64,000 nt of DNA, from contig NZ_CP130058.1 of assembly GCF_030644365.1 (NCBI RefSeq), positions 62,001 through 126,000 on the forward strand, given 5' to 3'. The notes below the pieces were generated by a model. The model did no database searches. It had not been told where the DNA came from and was given only the letters and a program-made list of their open reading frames with translations. How positions within the stretch are numbered: the first letter of the stretch is position 1; each line of letters begins with the position of its first letter. This document shows positions 33,624 to 63,410 of this stretch, in pieces. Made by a program: the position numbers and the translations under genes. The stretch comes from Schaalia sp. HMT-172. Its GTDB lineage: Bacteria > Actinomycetota > Actinomycetes > Actinomycetales > Actinomycetaceae.

Positions 33624-33730
33624 GTCGCATGCAATTCCCTCGCGACTATTTCAAACATTGAAATCGCATCGTTGGAATTGCAACGTTTGTAGGCGGTGTT
33701 AAAAACTGACCCGGGGGAATTGCATGCGAC
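33624..33730 (+). repeat. 107-bp inverted-terminus element, copy 1
   Basis: Ends are GTCGCATGCAATT and its exact complement AATTGCATGCGAC. Inside lie the hairpin TTTCAA-ACA-TTGAAA and the palindrome-like GTTGGAATTGCAAC. Right half is of the AAAAACTGACC subtype. Confidence 0.92.
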
Positions 33731-33827
33731 TTTTTTGGGGGGAACGCCGGAAAGGGGTCGCGCATAGACGACGCGGCCGGGCACCCGCCAGATTCCTGCA
33801 GTCGTGGTCCCGTGGTTCCTCAACAAT

Positions 33828-33934
33828 GTCGCATGCAATTCCCTCGCGATTATTTCAAACATTGAAATCGCATCGTTGGAATTGCAACGTTTGTAGGCGG
33901 TGTTAAAAACTGACCCGGGGGAATTGCATGCGAC
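33828..33934 (+). repeat. 107-bp inverted-terminus element, copy 2
   Basis: Almost identical to copy 1, same orientation, start-to-start distance 204 bases. The inverted ends extend two more bases outward here (AT...AT). Confidence 0.92.
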
Positions 33935-34030
33935 ATTTGGGTGGGAATCCACAGAAAGGGAGCGCGCACAGACAATGCGGCCGGGCATATGACGCGGCCG
34001 GGCACGACAATGTGCCCGGCCGCGTGGGGA

Positions 34031-34993
34031 TCAGAAGTCCCAGTCCTCGTCCTCGGTGTCCACGACCTCGCCCATCACGTAGGACGAACCGGACCCCGAG
34101 AAGAAGTCGTGGTTCTCGTCCGCGTTCGGGCTCAGGGCCGCCAGGATCGCCGGGTTCACGTCGGTCGCGTCATGCGGGAACAAGGCCTCGTACCCCAGAT
34201 TCATGAGCGCCTTGTTCGCGTTGTAACGCAGGAACTTCTTCACGTCCTCGGTCAGGCCCAGCGGATCGTACAGGTCCTCCGTGTACTGCTCCTCGTTCTC
34301 GTAAAGCTCGTACAGTAGCGCGTACGTGTAATCGCGCAGGTCATCCTGGCGTTCCTCGCTCGACTCGTTCACGGCCAGCTGATACTTGTAGCCGATGTAG
34401 TAGCCGTGGACGGCCTCGTCGCGGATGATGAGACGAATCAGGTCAGCCGTGTTCGTCAGCTTCGCGTGCGAGCTCCAGTACATGGGCGCGTAGAAGCCCG
34501 AGTAGAACAGGAAAGACTCCAGCATCGTCGAGGCGACCTTGCGCTTCTCCGGGTCGTTGCCGTCGTAGTACGACTTGATGATCTCGGCCTTCTTCTGCAG
34601 GGCCGCGTTCTCATTCGACCAGCGGAAAGACTCGTTGATCTCCTCCGTGGATAGCAGGGTGGAGAAGATCGACGAATAAGACTTCGCGTGCACCGACTCC
34701 ATGAATGCGATGTTCGTGTAGACGGCCTCCTCGTGCGGGGTGCGCGCGTCCGGGATCAGCGACACCGCGCCGACCGTGCCCTGAAGCGTATCCAGGAGGG
34801 TCAGGCCCGTGAACACGCGGTTCGTCATGAGCTGCTCATCCTTGTTGAGGGTCTTCCAGCTCGGCAGGTCGTTGGAGAGCGGAATCTTCTCAGGCAGCCA
34901 GAAGTTGCCCGTCAGGCGATCCCAGACCTCAAGGTCCTTGTCGTCTTGGATCTTGTTCCAGTTGATGGCCTCGAACACGGGCTCGGTCGCCAT
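34031..34993 (-). CDS. nrdF: Class Ib ribonucleotide reductase small subunit NrdF
   Basis: A 320-residue di-metal radical protein. It shows [20 protein letters not shown] split as NWNKI and the iron/manganese ligands in [17 protein letters not shown] and [13 protein letters not shown]; the C-terminal DEDWDF binds NrdE. ATG 34993 has GAGGAG upstream. It is separated from nrdHIE by 20 kb and lies on the other strand. No NrdR-like box is seen in its leader, unlike nrdHIE. Confidence 0.96.
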
Positions 34994-35153
34994 GGGGGCT
35001 CCTCTATGTGCGGTGTTGAACGGACGAGGCCGGGGTTGCCTCGCGCTGCTCCCATCAGGATACCCGCGGGGTACGCCCGGCGCGTTCACCCGGGGATGTG
35101 CGTTTCGTGGACGCGCTCACGCAGGAGGGCACGCGGGCGCTATCGTAATCGCC

Positions 35154-35622
35154 ATGACGACGCCCACATTCGCCGATGCCGACGCTGCGCTCGCCAAAAA
35201 CGACTACGAGGCCGCCCTCACCATCCTCGAACGCATCGACGTGGTTGGCGAAGACGCCTGCTACCGGCGAGACATCCAGGCCGCGACCATGGCCGGCAAA
35301 GGCTGCTCCCAAGCTCATGAAGCTCCCCTTCATCTCCGGCCTGGGCTGCTTACTTCTGTACCATCTGTGCCTCGCTCGATTCATGTCCTACGGCGCCCGC
35401 CCGTTGGTCCTCCTGCTGTACATCGCCCCCATCGCCGATATTTACCTCCACATGGGCCGCCAGGTCGCCACCTTCAACCGAACCCTGCCGCGAGGCGTGC
35501 GCCTGACCTTCTTAGGCCTCAACATCCGGTGGCATGATGTGGCTGACAATGTCTACATCTCCTTTTTCACCACAGCCTTCGTCGGCCTCATCCTCGCATC
35601 CTTGGTGCAGGGCGGCGGGTAG
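35154..35622 (+). pseudogene. Decayed copy of the TPR-membrane protein gene
   Basis: The first 130 or so bases from ATG 35154, with their leaderless TATCGT promoter, are almost identical to the intact gene at 36966 (through RRDIQAA). Then about 460 bases of the middle are missing, and the membrane part (GLGCLLLYHLC, then MGRQVATFNRTLPRGVRLTF) continues in another frame to 35622. Internal deletion plus frameshift make it non-functional as a full protein; a truncated product is possible. Confidence 0.8.
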
Positions 35623-61142: not shown

Positions 61143-61227
61143 TGTCAGCCAGCCCGCCCCGCGATGAGACCAACGCCAGCGCCTGCGAGAACCCCTCTCT
61201 CGCAGGCACCGCCTGTAAACTTGCAGC

Positions 61228-63057
61228 ATGACTCCCCGATACGAAGCCCCCGCACGCTCGACGTCCGGAACCGACGCTGACCTCCTCGACCAGCTGCGAC
61301 ACGCGGACGGGCGCCCCTACGGCTTCTACAAGAACGCCCTCGGCGCCTGGGACTACGGCGACTTCACCCTCGCGATCGACCACGTTCAAGCGGACCCCTA
61401 CGCCCCGCCCTCGTCCCTGCGAGCCTGGGCACGGCCCGAGGCCATGGGACTGCCCGAGGCCGCCCTGGCCTCGTCCGACGCCCGCCTCGCCGCCGCGGAC
61501 TTCATCGCCCGCTCCTTCGACGAGGCTATCCGCGCCCGCGGAGCGCGCGACGTGACGATCGCCCGCGCCGGCGCCCTCATCCTCCAGCGCTCCTACGCGA
61601 CCGTCCTGCCCGACCGCGTCGAAGTCCGCTTCCAAGTCAAGCTCCCCGCGCGCGGACGCACGATCCTCGGCAAGAGCGCCGCTCGCCTCTTCGACGTCGA
61701 CGTGCCCAACATCGTCATGGACTGCTTCGACTTCGTCTCCGAAGACCCGGACACGACCCGCAAGCGTTCCCGCCTCCTCGCCCACGTCGCCGCCTACGAG
61801 GACTACCGCGCCCTCCAAGGGATCCTCGAAGAGCGCGGGTGGGTGTCCTTCGTCGCCGACGACGCCATGCTCGCGCGCCGCTCCGGCGTGTCCGAGGCCC
61901 CCCTCGCCGGCGACGGCGTCGTCGCCTTCGCCTCCCCCGAGTCCCTGCGCACCACCGTCACCCTGCCGCACGCCGGCGAGGTCACCGGCATGGCCATCCC
62001 CCCGGGCCTGACCCTCATCGTGGGCGGCGGCTACCACGGCAAATCCACCCTCCTGGAGGCCATCGCCCAGGGCGTCTACGCGCACGTGCCCGGCGACGGC
62101 CGCGAACTCGTCGCCACCGACCCCACCGCCACGAAGGTGCGCGCCGCCGACGGGCGAGCCGTCACCGGCGTCGACATCTCACCCTTCATCACCCACCTGC
62201 CCGGCGGCGCCGACACCACGTCGTTTTCCACCGAGAACGCCTCCGGCTCCACCTCGCAGGCCGCCTCCATCATCGAATCCCTCGAGCTGGGCGCGCGCAC
62301 GCTCCTCATCGACGAAGACACCTCCGCCACCAACCTCCTCATCCGCGACACCCGCATGCGCGACCTCGTCGCCGCCGAGAAGGAACCCATCACGCCCCTC
62401 GTCGACCGCGTCACCTCCCTCACCGAGGCCGGGGTCTCCCTCATCATGGTCGTCGGCGGCTCCGGCGCCTTCCTCGACGCCGCCGACCGGGTCCTCATGA
62501 TGGACAACTACCACTGCCTCGACGTCACCTCCCGCGCGCGCGAGGTCGTCGCCGACCTGCCGCGCCCCCGCACCGACGCCCCAACCTCCTGGGAGGCCGC
62601 ACCCCGCGTGCCCGCCGCTAAGGCCCGCGTGGACCGCCCGCGCACCAAGGCCTCGGGCACGACCGTGTTGACGATCGACCGTTCGACCGTCGACATTTCC
62701 GACGTCGCCGCCGTCGTTGACCCCGGGCAGGCCGAGGCCATCGCCTGGTGCGTGCGCGGCGTCCTCGAGGAGATGGCCGGCAAGCAGTCGATGCCCGACC
62801 TCATGGCCAAGCTCGGCCGACGCCTCGCTTCCGAGGGCCTGGACGCCGTCTGCAAGTTCGGCGCCCGCCCCTACCCGGCGTTCCTGGCGCGCCCGCGCCT
62901 CATCGACGTGGGCGCCGCCATCAACCGCTACCGCGGCCTGTCCCTGCGCGAGCCGCGCGAGGCGGGGGAGGCGGACGATCCGCGCGAGGCTGGCCAGGTG
63001 GGCGCGGCGCGCGAGGCGGGCCAGGTGGACGATCCGCGCGAGGCGGTCGAGTCGTAG
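61228..63057 (+). CDS. ABC-class P-loop ATPase (PF09818-type)
   Basis: 609 residues. A single large predicted ATPase of the ABC class without membrane segments: Walker A GGGYHGKSTLLEAI (about residue 268), a signature-like ASGSTSQAASI, Walker B TLLIDEDTSATNLL and a switch-like MVVGGSGAF. Members of this family are widespread but of unknown function; distant links to DNA/RNA or isoprenoid metabolism were suggested only by context. Leaderless: TAAACT six bases before ATG. The C-terminus ends in degenerate repeats (REAGQVDDP). Confidence 0.88.
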   Translation: MTPRYEAPARSTSGTDADLLDQLRHADGRPYGFYKNALGAWDYGDFTLAIDHVQADPYAPPSSLRAWARPEAMGLPEAALASSDARLAAADFIARSFDEAIRARGARDVTIARAGALILQRSYATVLPDRVEVRFQVKLPARGRTILGKSAARLFDVDVPNIVMDCFDFVSEDPDTTRKRSRLLAHVAAYEDYRALQGILEERGWVSFVADDAMLARRSGVSEAPLAGDGVVAFASPESLRTTVTLPHAGEVTGMAIPPGLTLIVGGGYHGKSTLLEAIAQGVYAHVPGDGRELVATDPTATKVRAADGRAVTGVDISPFITHLPGGADTTSFSTENASGSTSQAASIIESLELGARTLLIDEDTSATNLLIRDTRMRDLVAAEKEPITPLVDRVTSLTEAGVSLIMVVGGSGAFLDAADRVLMMDNYHCLDVTSRAREVVADLPRPRTDAPTSWEAAPRVPAAKARVDRPRTKASGTTVLTIDRSTVDISDVAAVVDPGQAEAIAWCVRGVLEEMAGKQSMPDLMAKLGRRLASEGLDAVCKFGARPYPAFLARPRLIDVGAAINRYRGLSLREPREAGEADDPREAGQVGAAREAGQVDDPREAVES

Positions 63058-63121
63058 CCGCTTGCGGCCGGACGCCGGGGCCACCCTCCACGCCAGTGGC
63101 GCCTGGTGTGCGCTCGGCAAT

Positions 63122-63228
63122 TTCGCACGTAATTCCCATGTAAACCTTTCAGACATTGAATTGGCATCGTTGGAATTGCAGCGATTCCGGAGATAATTGA
63201 AAGTTCAGGCAATCGAATTGCATGCGAA
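63122..63228 (+). repeat. 107-bp inverted-terminus element, copy 6
   Basis: Left end TTCGCACGTAATT, right end AATTGCATGCGAA. The outermost pair changed from G-C to T-A on both sides at once, keeping the stem. Right half is the GAAAGTTCAGGCAATCG subtype. Confidence 0.88.
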
Positions 63229-63303
63229 ATTTCGGGTATGTGTCTCTGTCGTCACTCCTGGGTGCTGCAGTCGGGCCAGCGCGGCTATTGTGCGCTCGGC
63301 ATT

Positions 63304-63410
63304 TTCGCACGTAATTCCCCCGCGACTATTTCAAACTTTGAATTCAGGCCGTTGGAATTGCAACGTTTGTGGGGCTAATTAAAAACTGACCAAGCGAAAT
63401 TACGTGCGAC
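63304..63410 (+). repeat. 107-bp inverted-terminus element, copy 7
   Basis: Left end TTCGCACGTAATT, right end AATTACGTGCGAC. Both ends have changed from the GCATGC core to GCACGT/ACGTGC together, keeping the inverted repeat. Inner hairpin TTCAAACTTTGAA retained. Confidence 0.9.

Follow-up and report, generated by a model that had tools for sequence, protein, structure and literature searches.

The window analyzed here, a 64,000-nucleotide stretch at positions 62,001–126,000 of the single-contig genome of Schaalia sp. HMT-172 (2,533,704 bp), contains seven copies of a 107-bp intergenic repeat with inverted ends and a central near-palindrome. The ends exist in two states that are matched within most copies, and ends, core and length are conserved in place between species. 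The reading favored here, on which our judgment is about evenly balanced, is of a repeat akin to REPINs or to miniature inverted-repeat transposable elements (MITEs), the ends of which would be held together by a putative protein and which would be kept by selection. The repeat is undescribed in the literature searched, where the four motifs tried match no text of the open-licence papers covered.

Anatomy and distribution of the repeat

Each element is made up of 12-bp inverted ends (TCGCAYGYAATT) spanning 105 bp, and a 16-bp near-palindrome (CGTTGGAATTGCAACG, hereafter the core) at the midpoint. The conserved unit is longer than 107 bp, with a weaker extension of about 9–10 bp on each side (CCCaacAAT ... 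aTTTgggg), and the right flank is T-rich. The two end states are designated A (ATGC) and B (ACGT). A preliminary description, made from the letters of the window, had given seven copies of exactly 107 bp, and both their starts and their lengths are confirmed. Six of them form three tandem pairs and two subtypes of the right half are present, as that description had also reported. The copies, and the parts of copy 1, are listed below.

33624..33730, + strand: copy 1, 107 bp, ends A/A, TCGCATGCAATT at both sides
33614..33623, + strand: left outer extension of copy 1, CCTCAACAAT (family consensus CCCaacAAT)
33625..33636, + strand: left 12-bp end of copy 1
33670..33685, + strand: central near-palindrome of copy 1, CGTTGGAATTGCAACG, 46 nt from the left end, at the element midpoint
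33718..33729, − strand: right 12-bp end of copy 1, inverted
33731..33740, + strand: right outer extension of copy 1, TTTTTTGGGG (family consensus aTTTgggg)
33828..33934, + strand: copy 2, 107 bp, ends A/A, in tandem with copy 1, 204 bp apart
40043..40149, + strand: copy 3, 107 bp, ends A/A
40298..40404, + strand: copy 4, 107 bp, mismatched ends (ATGC left, ACC type right), in tandem with copy 3, 255 bp apart
45143..45249, + strand: copy 5, 107 bp, ends A/A
63122..63228, + strand: copy 6, 107 bp, ACGT left and ATGC right, the sole such mixed copy among 261
63304..63410, + strand: copy 7, 107 bp, ends B/B (TCGCACGTAATT), in tandem with copy 6, 182 bp apart

By the gene calls made here the copies are intergenic, which bears out the gene-free location reported for six of them, although a weak open frame of 189 nt runs over copy 1. 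The single orientation reported for them holds in the window (7/7 on the + strand) but not across the genome, where 56 copies lie on the + strand and 39 on the − strand. A covariance model of the seven copies finds at least about 95 distinct places in this 2.53-Mb genome (150 of 325 candidates scored); two weak places (1837682 and 1966412) were excluded from the list of 95. Since the end 12-mer TCGCAYGYAATT occurs 173 times, against 0 for a reversed control, and the family numbers about 95 copies, the repeat is not a product of chance. When both ends are allowed at most two mismatches, seven genomes yield 261 distinct copies, with lengths of 107 bp in 205, 108 bp in 38, 109 bp in 14 and 106 bp in 4. 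Of the 258 copies in which a core can be recognized, 252 have it 46 nt from the left end, and nearly all slack in length lies to the right of the core. The outer extensions oppose the direction of the interior in 24 of the 261 copies by score, a few of them strongly (such copies include L193 2086, L153 8076 and L179 4491), and locus L301 is a nested case.

With strict filters and at most 54 matches scored per genome, the covariance model matched 12 of 58 genomes, every one in the same genus. Across 35 genomes of this genus the end 12-mer is found 173 times in Schaalia sp. HMT-172 and 172, 152, 133, 88, and 68 times in five others; three more have 25, 24, and 6, and the remaining 26 have 0–3. 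Five relatives carry the element by the dozens. The same 20-mer occurs in the named relatives Schaalia odontolytica, Actinomyces bouchesdurhonensis, Actinomyces sp. HPA0247, and Schaalia sp. ORNL0103, and the host is accordingly taken to be a Schaalia of the odontolytica group (oral Actinomyces). The Schaalia repeat is also carried by records named Sanguibacter keddieii 250_SKED and Xylanimonas cellulosilytica 352_XCEL (L061 and other JVOJ and JVKM records); these names look wrong, because one JVOJ locus gives the same match as G011, of the window's genus. Beyond the genus, the exact 20-mer TCGTTGGAATTGCAACGTTT is present in six Bifidobacterium species and in Buchananella (7 of 87 stretches: L062, L072, L095, L100, L113, L123, and L060). 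Near-core second copies are seen at four of the eight loci examined (L062, L095, L123, and L060), and at L060 and L062 the exact 20-mer sits, by eye, between different inverted repeats. The possibility that the core is a wide actinobacterial motif was rejected, the exact core being found in only 2 of 296 genomes of a class sample, that of Schaalia sp. HMT-172 included.

Conservation in place, matched ends and helical spacing

In 86 orthologous pairs, located via their flanks on both sides, the 13-nt ends are 9.6% different, with much of this due to the state switch and the outermost base, the interior 18.3% (2% gaps) and the flanks 27% (30% gaps). Per-site rates were taken from 50 pairs of 107-bp copies, the other 36 being dropped as not both 107 bp, holding an N or showing more than 25 differences. 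In these, the ends minus the switch sites differ at 1.1%, the core at 3.4%, the other interior at 16.6% and the switch sites at 20%. Because orthologous copies had been selected by their ends, a profile of the interior only was run over 464 kb of contiguous sequence (the window, G010 and G023): of its 52 matches, 44 have perfect ends, seven have one mismatch and one is truncated. Element interiors can turn over between fixed flanks, as seen at two of the seven loci displayed, where the interior is swapped to another subfamily and the flanks are near-identical up to the ends. Both flanks of 32 copies from Schaalia sp. HMT-172 were located in the G010 and G023 stretches, where 21 have a copy and 11 do not. 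None of the five copy-less sites viewed is a clean 127-bp insertion; at site 145748 there is a roughly 250-bp insert flanked by direct repeats of about 30 bp, and the relative has no element there. The element is probably still used in the S. odontolytica group, given that orthologous sites preserve its ends, core and length.

The end states are mostly matched. Among the 261 copies, 105 are B/B, 89 are A/A and one, window copy 6, is B/A; five combine A with a right end of AGGT, 14 combine B with a right end of CACAT, which forms a G-U pair, and the rest have small changes at one or both ends. The A/A to B/B ratio is 53:32 in Schaalia sp. HMT-172 and 32:9, 10:42, 6:16, and 4:14 in four other genomes. 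The outermost base pair is matched only loosely. It had been proposed that both ends of copies 6 and 7 changed together, which is borne out in part and fails for copy 6. Copy 6 has the outermost T...A but reads CACGT at the left and CATGC at the right; copy 7 has CACGT at both sides but an unpaired outermost T...C. End covariation in general, though strong genome-wide, is weak in the seven copies: by five measures, between 29 and 82 of 500 shuffles match or exceed the actual value. It persists in further copies, as does the conservation of length (261 copies).

Covariation was ranked in an ungapped alignment of 142 non-redundant 107-mers (effective number 27; one of 143 was dropped as it holds an N). 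The end pair 7–101 comes first (z 16.2); its counterpart in the ends, 9–99, is fifth (11.1), and the ranks between them are taken by the cross pair 9–101 and two core-internal pairs. The four end sites act as one two-state unit and therefore do not represent many independent compensations, and the asymmetric A/AGGT type argues against a strict pairing requirement. Both states are present in 17 of 38 orthologous groups; in the cleanest switch (L157 vs. L135) both ends have changed and the interior differs at 3 of 83 sites. The TTTCAA/TTGAAA and GTTG/CAAC stems proposed for the interior are conserved in sequence, but the consensus fold of the 142 sequences keeps the 12-bp outer stem alone, closing an 81-nt loop. 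The inner left and right regions fold about as well as shuffles, and the central palindrome beats shuffles on both strands alike. On the + strand, four copies give folding z-scores of −7.6, −5.4, −4.9, and −1.2; on the − strand, two give −6.1 and −3.1. The end stem retains G-U more than A-C (44 vs. 23 of 3,132 cells).

The same ends are also found around unrelated interiors at 63, 73, and 83 bp, in rarer families of the DNA retrieved. The 63-bp class has two members, orthologous in G028 and G034, with one end mismatch each, and the 73-bp class has one; the 83-bp class has five distinct members in the retrieved DNA and seven exact ones in nine whole genomes. In these nine genomes, exact end pairs within 60–90 bp occur only at 73 bp (1) and 83 bp (7), none occur at 29–59 bp, and 108–138 bp holds one nested case only. 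No end pairs lie at 91–103 bp in the retrieved DNA with one mismatch allowed, a range outside the whole-genome scan. At 10.5 bp per turn, the best-fitting pitch, spacings of 63, 73, 83, and 105 bp correspond to 6.0, 6.95, 7.9, and 10.0 turns, with P = 0.004 for four random lengths all falling within 1 bp of a multiple.

What could such an element do? The elements, non-coding, non-autonomous and interspersed, would function through DNA recognition sites, namely the ends and the central near-palindrome. A putative trans-acting protein may bind both ends simultaneously; since the intervening DNA is short and stiff, this would require the ends to face roughly the same side of the helix, and only spacings near whole turns (63, 73, 83, and 105 bp) would work. 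A second protein, or a bend, may be located at the central palindrome. The family would have spread across genomes of the S. odontolytica group into the 3′ flanks of genes, as REPINs and MITEs do. Among the roles raised in the preliminary description, that of a protein site is favored by the rigid end-core spacing, the near-integral helical spacing and the low divergence of ends and core between orthologous sites.

Placement, candidate partners and alternative explanations

Gene context could be assigned to 90 of the 95 copies, the other five having no called neighbor at one side: 37 lie in convergent, 49 in tandem and 4 in divergent settings. Intergenic DNA free of copies amounts, in these stretches, to 4,669 bp convergent (16%), 14,247 bp tandem and 9,461 bp divergent (33%). 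A structured 3′ untranslated RNA, or a two-way terminator for the upstream gene, would fit this strong preference for gene 3′ sides, the orientation of 37 of the 49 tandem-setting copies with the gene, the folding scores, the G-U excess in the end stem and the T-rich right flank. However, the consensus fold is an outer stem alone, the inner regions besides the palindrome fold like shuffles, and an RNA stem needs neither a fixed length nor a fixed end-core distance. No Rfam match was found in the window at gathering score, and no intrinsic terminator (a short-loop GC stem followed by a T run) at copies 1–2, the copies covered by the scan; the sole terminator-like match in that region lies upstream, at 33469–33483, with 0.8 expected. 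We consider this explanation improbable, and the small-RNA family suggested earlier faces the same missing Rfam match and unexpectedly fixed length, along with inner helices that show no covariation. The copies are also distributed unevenly along the chromosome. Of the 95 copies, 38 fall within 200 kb of dnaA and a single one within 267 kb of the opposite point (p ~1e-8 each), with the origin placed by dnaA alone and the gradient drawn from one genome. Mobile debris usually follows the opposite trend. Sixty-four of 90 copies are oriented along replication. In tandem settings, copies for which gene and replication direction disagree split 10 vs. 9, and in convergent gaps, where gene direction cannot bias the count, 25 of 37 follow replication (p 0.05), or 22 of 33 when neighbors are merged (p 0.08). 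A DNA site for chromosome organization (nucleoid, segregation or division control) that is no longer a mobile element would account for the origin-rich placement, the orientation and the conservation of ends and core in place. Against it stand the weakness of the bias in convergent gaps, the gain and loss of copies between species, the 0–3 end motifs in 26 of 35 genomes of the genus, which is odd for a core function, and the placing of the origin by dnaA alone, in one genome; dnaA was not found in the retrieved contig ends of three other genomes. Such a site is rather unlikely. An elaboration, in which a putative chromosome-organizing complex of oral actinomycetes would be loaded or tethered at the elements, with three protein sites in fixed helical register, origin-rich and nearly terminus-free placement, and matching end codes (ATGC/ACGT) that let two complexes of different specificity share the sites, is likewise an outside prospect.

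If the elements were ordinary MITEs, non-autonomous and dead copies derived from a DDE transposon with terminal inverted repeats, their ends would match as one transposase cut both. They are indeed short, non-coding, multi-copy, intergenic and clade-limited, with inverted ends, subfamilies and tandem copies, and their length and copy number are near those given for pneumococcal RUP (PMC2229807). However, no convincing target duplication is seen in 167 non-redundant flanks at 2–10 bp and offsets 0–21; the best score among 4,356 combinations is z 4.0, reached by a dinucleotide seen in 14 flanks vs. 4.6 expected. No transposon with these ends was found in the genome of Schaalia sp. HMT-172, where 100 of the 173 ends were examined: 98 belong to the 95 copies, one to an 83-bp element and one to a weak copy. 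The retrieved stretches, by which relatives were covered, have 5 unpaired ends of about 201, and neither they, nor the viral loci, nor the phage and plasmid collections contain a partner with these ends. Dead copies should also decay evenly, at ends and interior alike, and a comparison of orthologous sites shows 15 times less difference in the ends than in the rest of the interior. Ordinary MITEs are given a low probability. The wider notion of a non-autonomous element, raised in the preliminary description, is supported by dispersal, subfamilies and clade-limited amplification, but not by a partner transposon, a target duplication or a Y1/RAYT transposase. Templated correction of an imperfect palindrome, by strand switching during replication, would keep the arms alike without selection for pairing. 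It agrees with the joint arm switch at one locus with few other changes (L157 vs. L135) and with the co-occurrence of A/A and B/B in orthologous groups, but would require two base changes in one arm first, sits poorly with the five mismatched A/AGGT copies and leaves the conservation of ends, core and length unexplained; we regard it as very improbable indeed.

Several candidate carriers and partners were rejected. PF01797, the Y1 domain of REP-associated tyrosine transposases (RAYTs), is missing from 18 of 18 genomes searched (controls positive in 5 of 14), on which ground a RAYT/REP origin was rejected. Carriage by phages or plasmids was dismissed, with no match in the phage or plasmid collections and a paired end in 0 of 20 15-mer matches to viral contigs. 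A DUF559 (Vsr-like nuclease) gene (L153 4104–4778) adjoins repeat copies in six element-rich genomes; complete copies lie on both sides in four, G022 has one on one side only, and in G010 the second flanking copy has only one recognizable end. As a partner this gene was discarded: it is present in 33 of 35 genomes, and homologs (40–54% identity) also occur in five relatives with 0–1 end motifs. At L168 2334–3160, a HepT-like gene and a helix-turn-helix/nucleotidyltransferase gene form a toxin-antitoxin-like pair between repeat copies. At L275 1164–2700, a copy whose left end is intact but which lacks a nearby right end is followed by an IS3-type transposase-like frame, as judged by eye.

The favored reading, of a selected REPIN- or MITE-like repeat with protein-bridged ends, has difficulties of its own. 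No mobilizing gene has been found, neither an autonomous element nor a Y1 transposase, and target duplication is missing as well. Protein binding alone leaves the matched two-state ends unexplained unless two specificities exist. The 261-copy set was preselected by its ends, the orthologous pairs fall into 38 groups and are not independent, and the interior-only profile was trained on good-ended copies from Schaalia sp. HMT-172 and run on copy-rich stretches, leaving some bias. Homogenization between copies could also yield conservation in place. The helical-phase case is post hoc and draws on four length families only, the 83-bp class being 1.0 bp off, and the family also tolerates 106 and 107 bp. 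Small repeats with inverted ends are usually viewed as decaying debris; here ends, core and spacing persist over species divergence. Spacing that is apparently quantized in helical turns, together with joint end switching, offers a handle on how short repeats are recognized, and a new end-binding protein is predicted in a lineage that hosts Saccharibacteria in the mouth. A saturated transposon library exists for this lineage (PMC12369343).

Two further repeats occur in the window. A second intergenic repeat is composed of GGATAGGTT-type units about 19–20 bp apart, several one way and then several inverted, and a 248-bp stretch is duplicated at 99% identity.

20231..20370: second intergenic repeat, GGATAGGTT-type
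44915..45054: second intergenic repeat, GGATAGGTT-type
53675..53799: second intergenic repeat, GGATAGGTT-type
L186, 1895..2015: second intergenic repeat, GGATAGGTT-type, outside the window
10504..10751 and 12141..12388: the duplicated 248-bp stretch
8839..8922: third, partial copy of the 248-bp stretch

Comparison with known repeats and chromosomal sites

The element resembles the ERIC/IRU repeats of enterobacteria in being about 127 bp long when the outer extensions are counted, in its intergenic position and in a possible effect on upstream transcripts (PMC2229807). It is found in a different phylum, the likeness being one of description, and the section on ERIC/IRU describes neither two-state ends nor a fixed central spacing (PMC2229807). 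RUP of Streptococcus pneumoniae is similar in its length of 107 bp, its 108 copies, its intergenic location and its inverted ends (PMC2229807). However, RUP has the ends of IS630-Spn1 and targets TA (PMC2229807), whereas here neither a partner nor a target duplication was found.

The REPINs of Pseudomonas fluorescens SBW25 share conserved inverted ends, a more variable spacer with a preferred length between them, end types two bases apart, an extragenic location and tandem clusters that include the flanks (PMC3116915). In contrast to REPINs, the repeat has a conserved central palindrome and an end-to-end spacing near whole helical turns, its 12-bp end is no REP hairpin in its own right, and RAYT is absent from all 18 genomes. 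A REP is an imperfect palindrome with a 5′ tetranucleotide; the state-A end, as read from its sequence, holds only a 6-bp inner palindrome. Spread and build are REPIN- or MITE-like, yet neither the RAYT and REP hairpin that define the one nor the partner and target duplication that define the other were found. Chromosomal sites of the Noc/SlmA type are single short palindromes, dispersed by the tens and poor near the terminus. The element is likewise dispersed by the tens and terminus-poor but, unlike those sites, is built of three parts and lies between genes.

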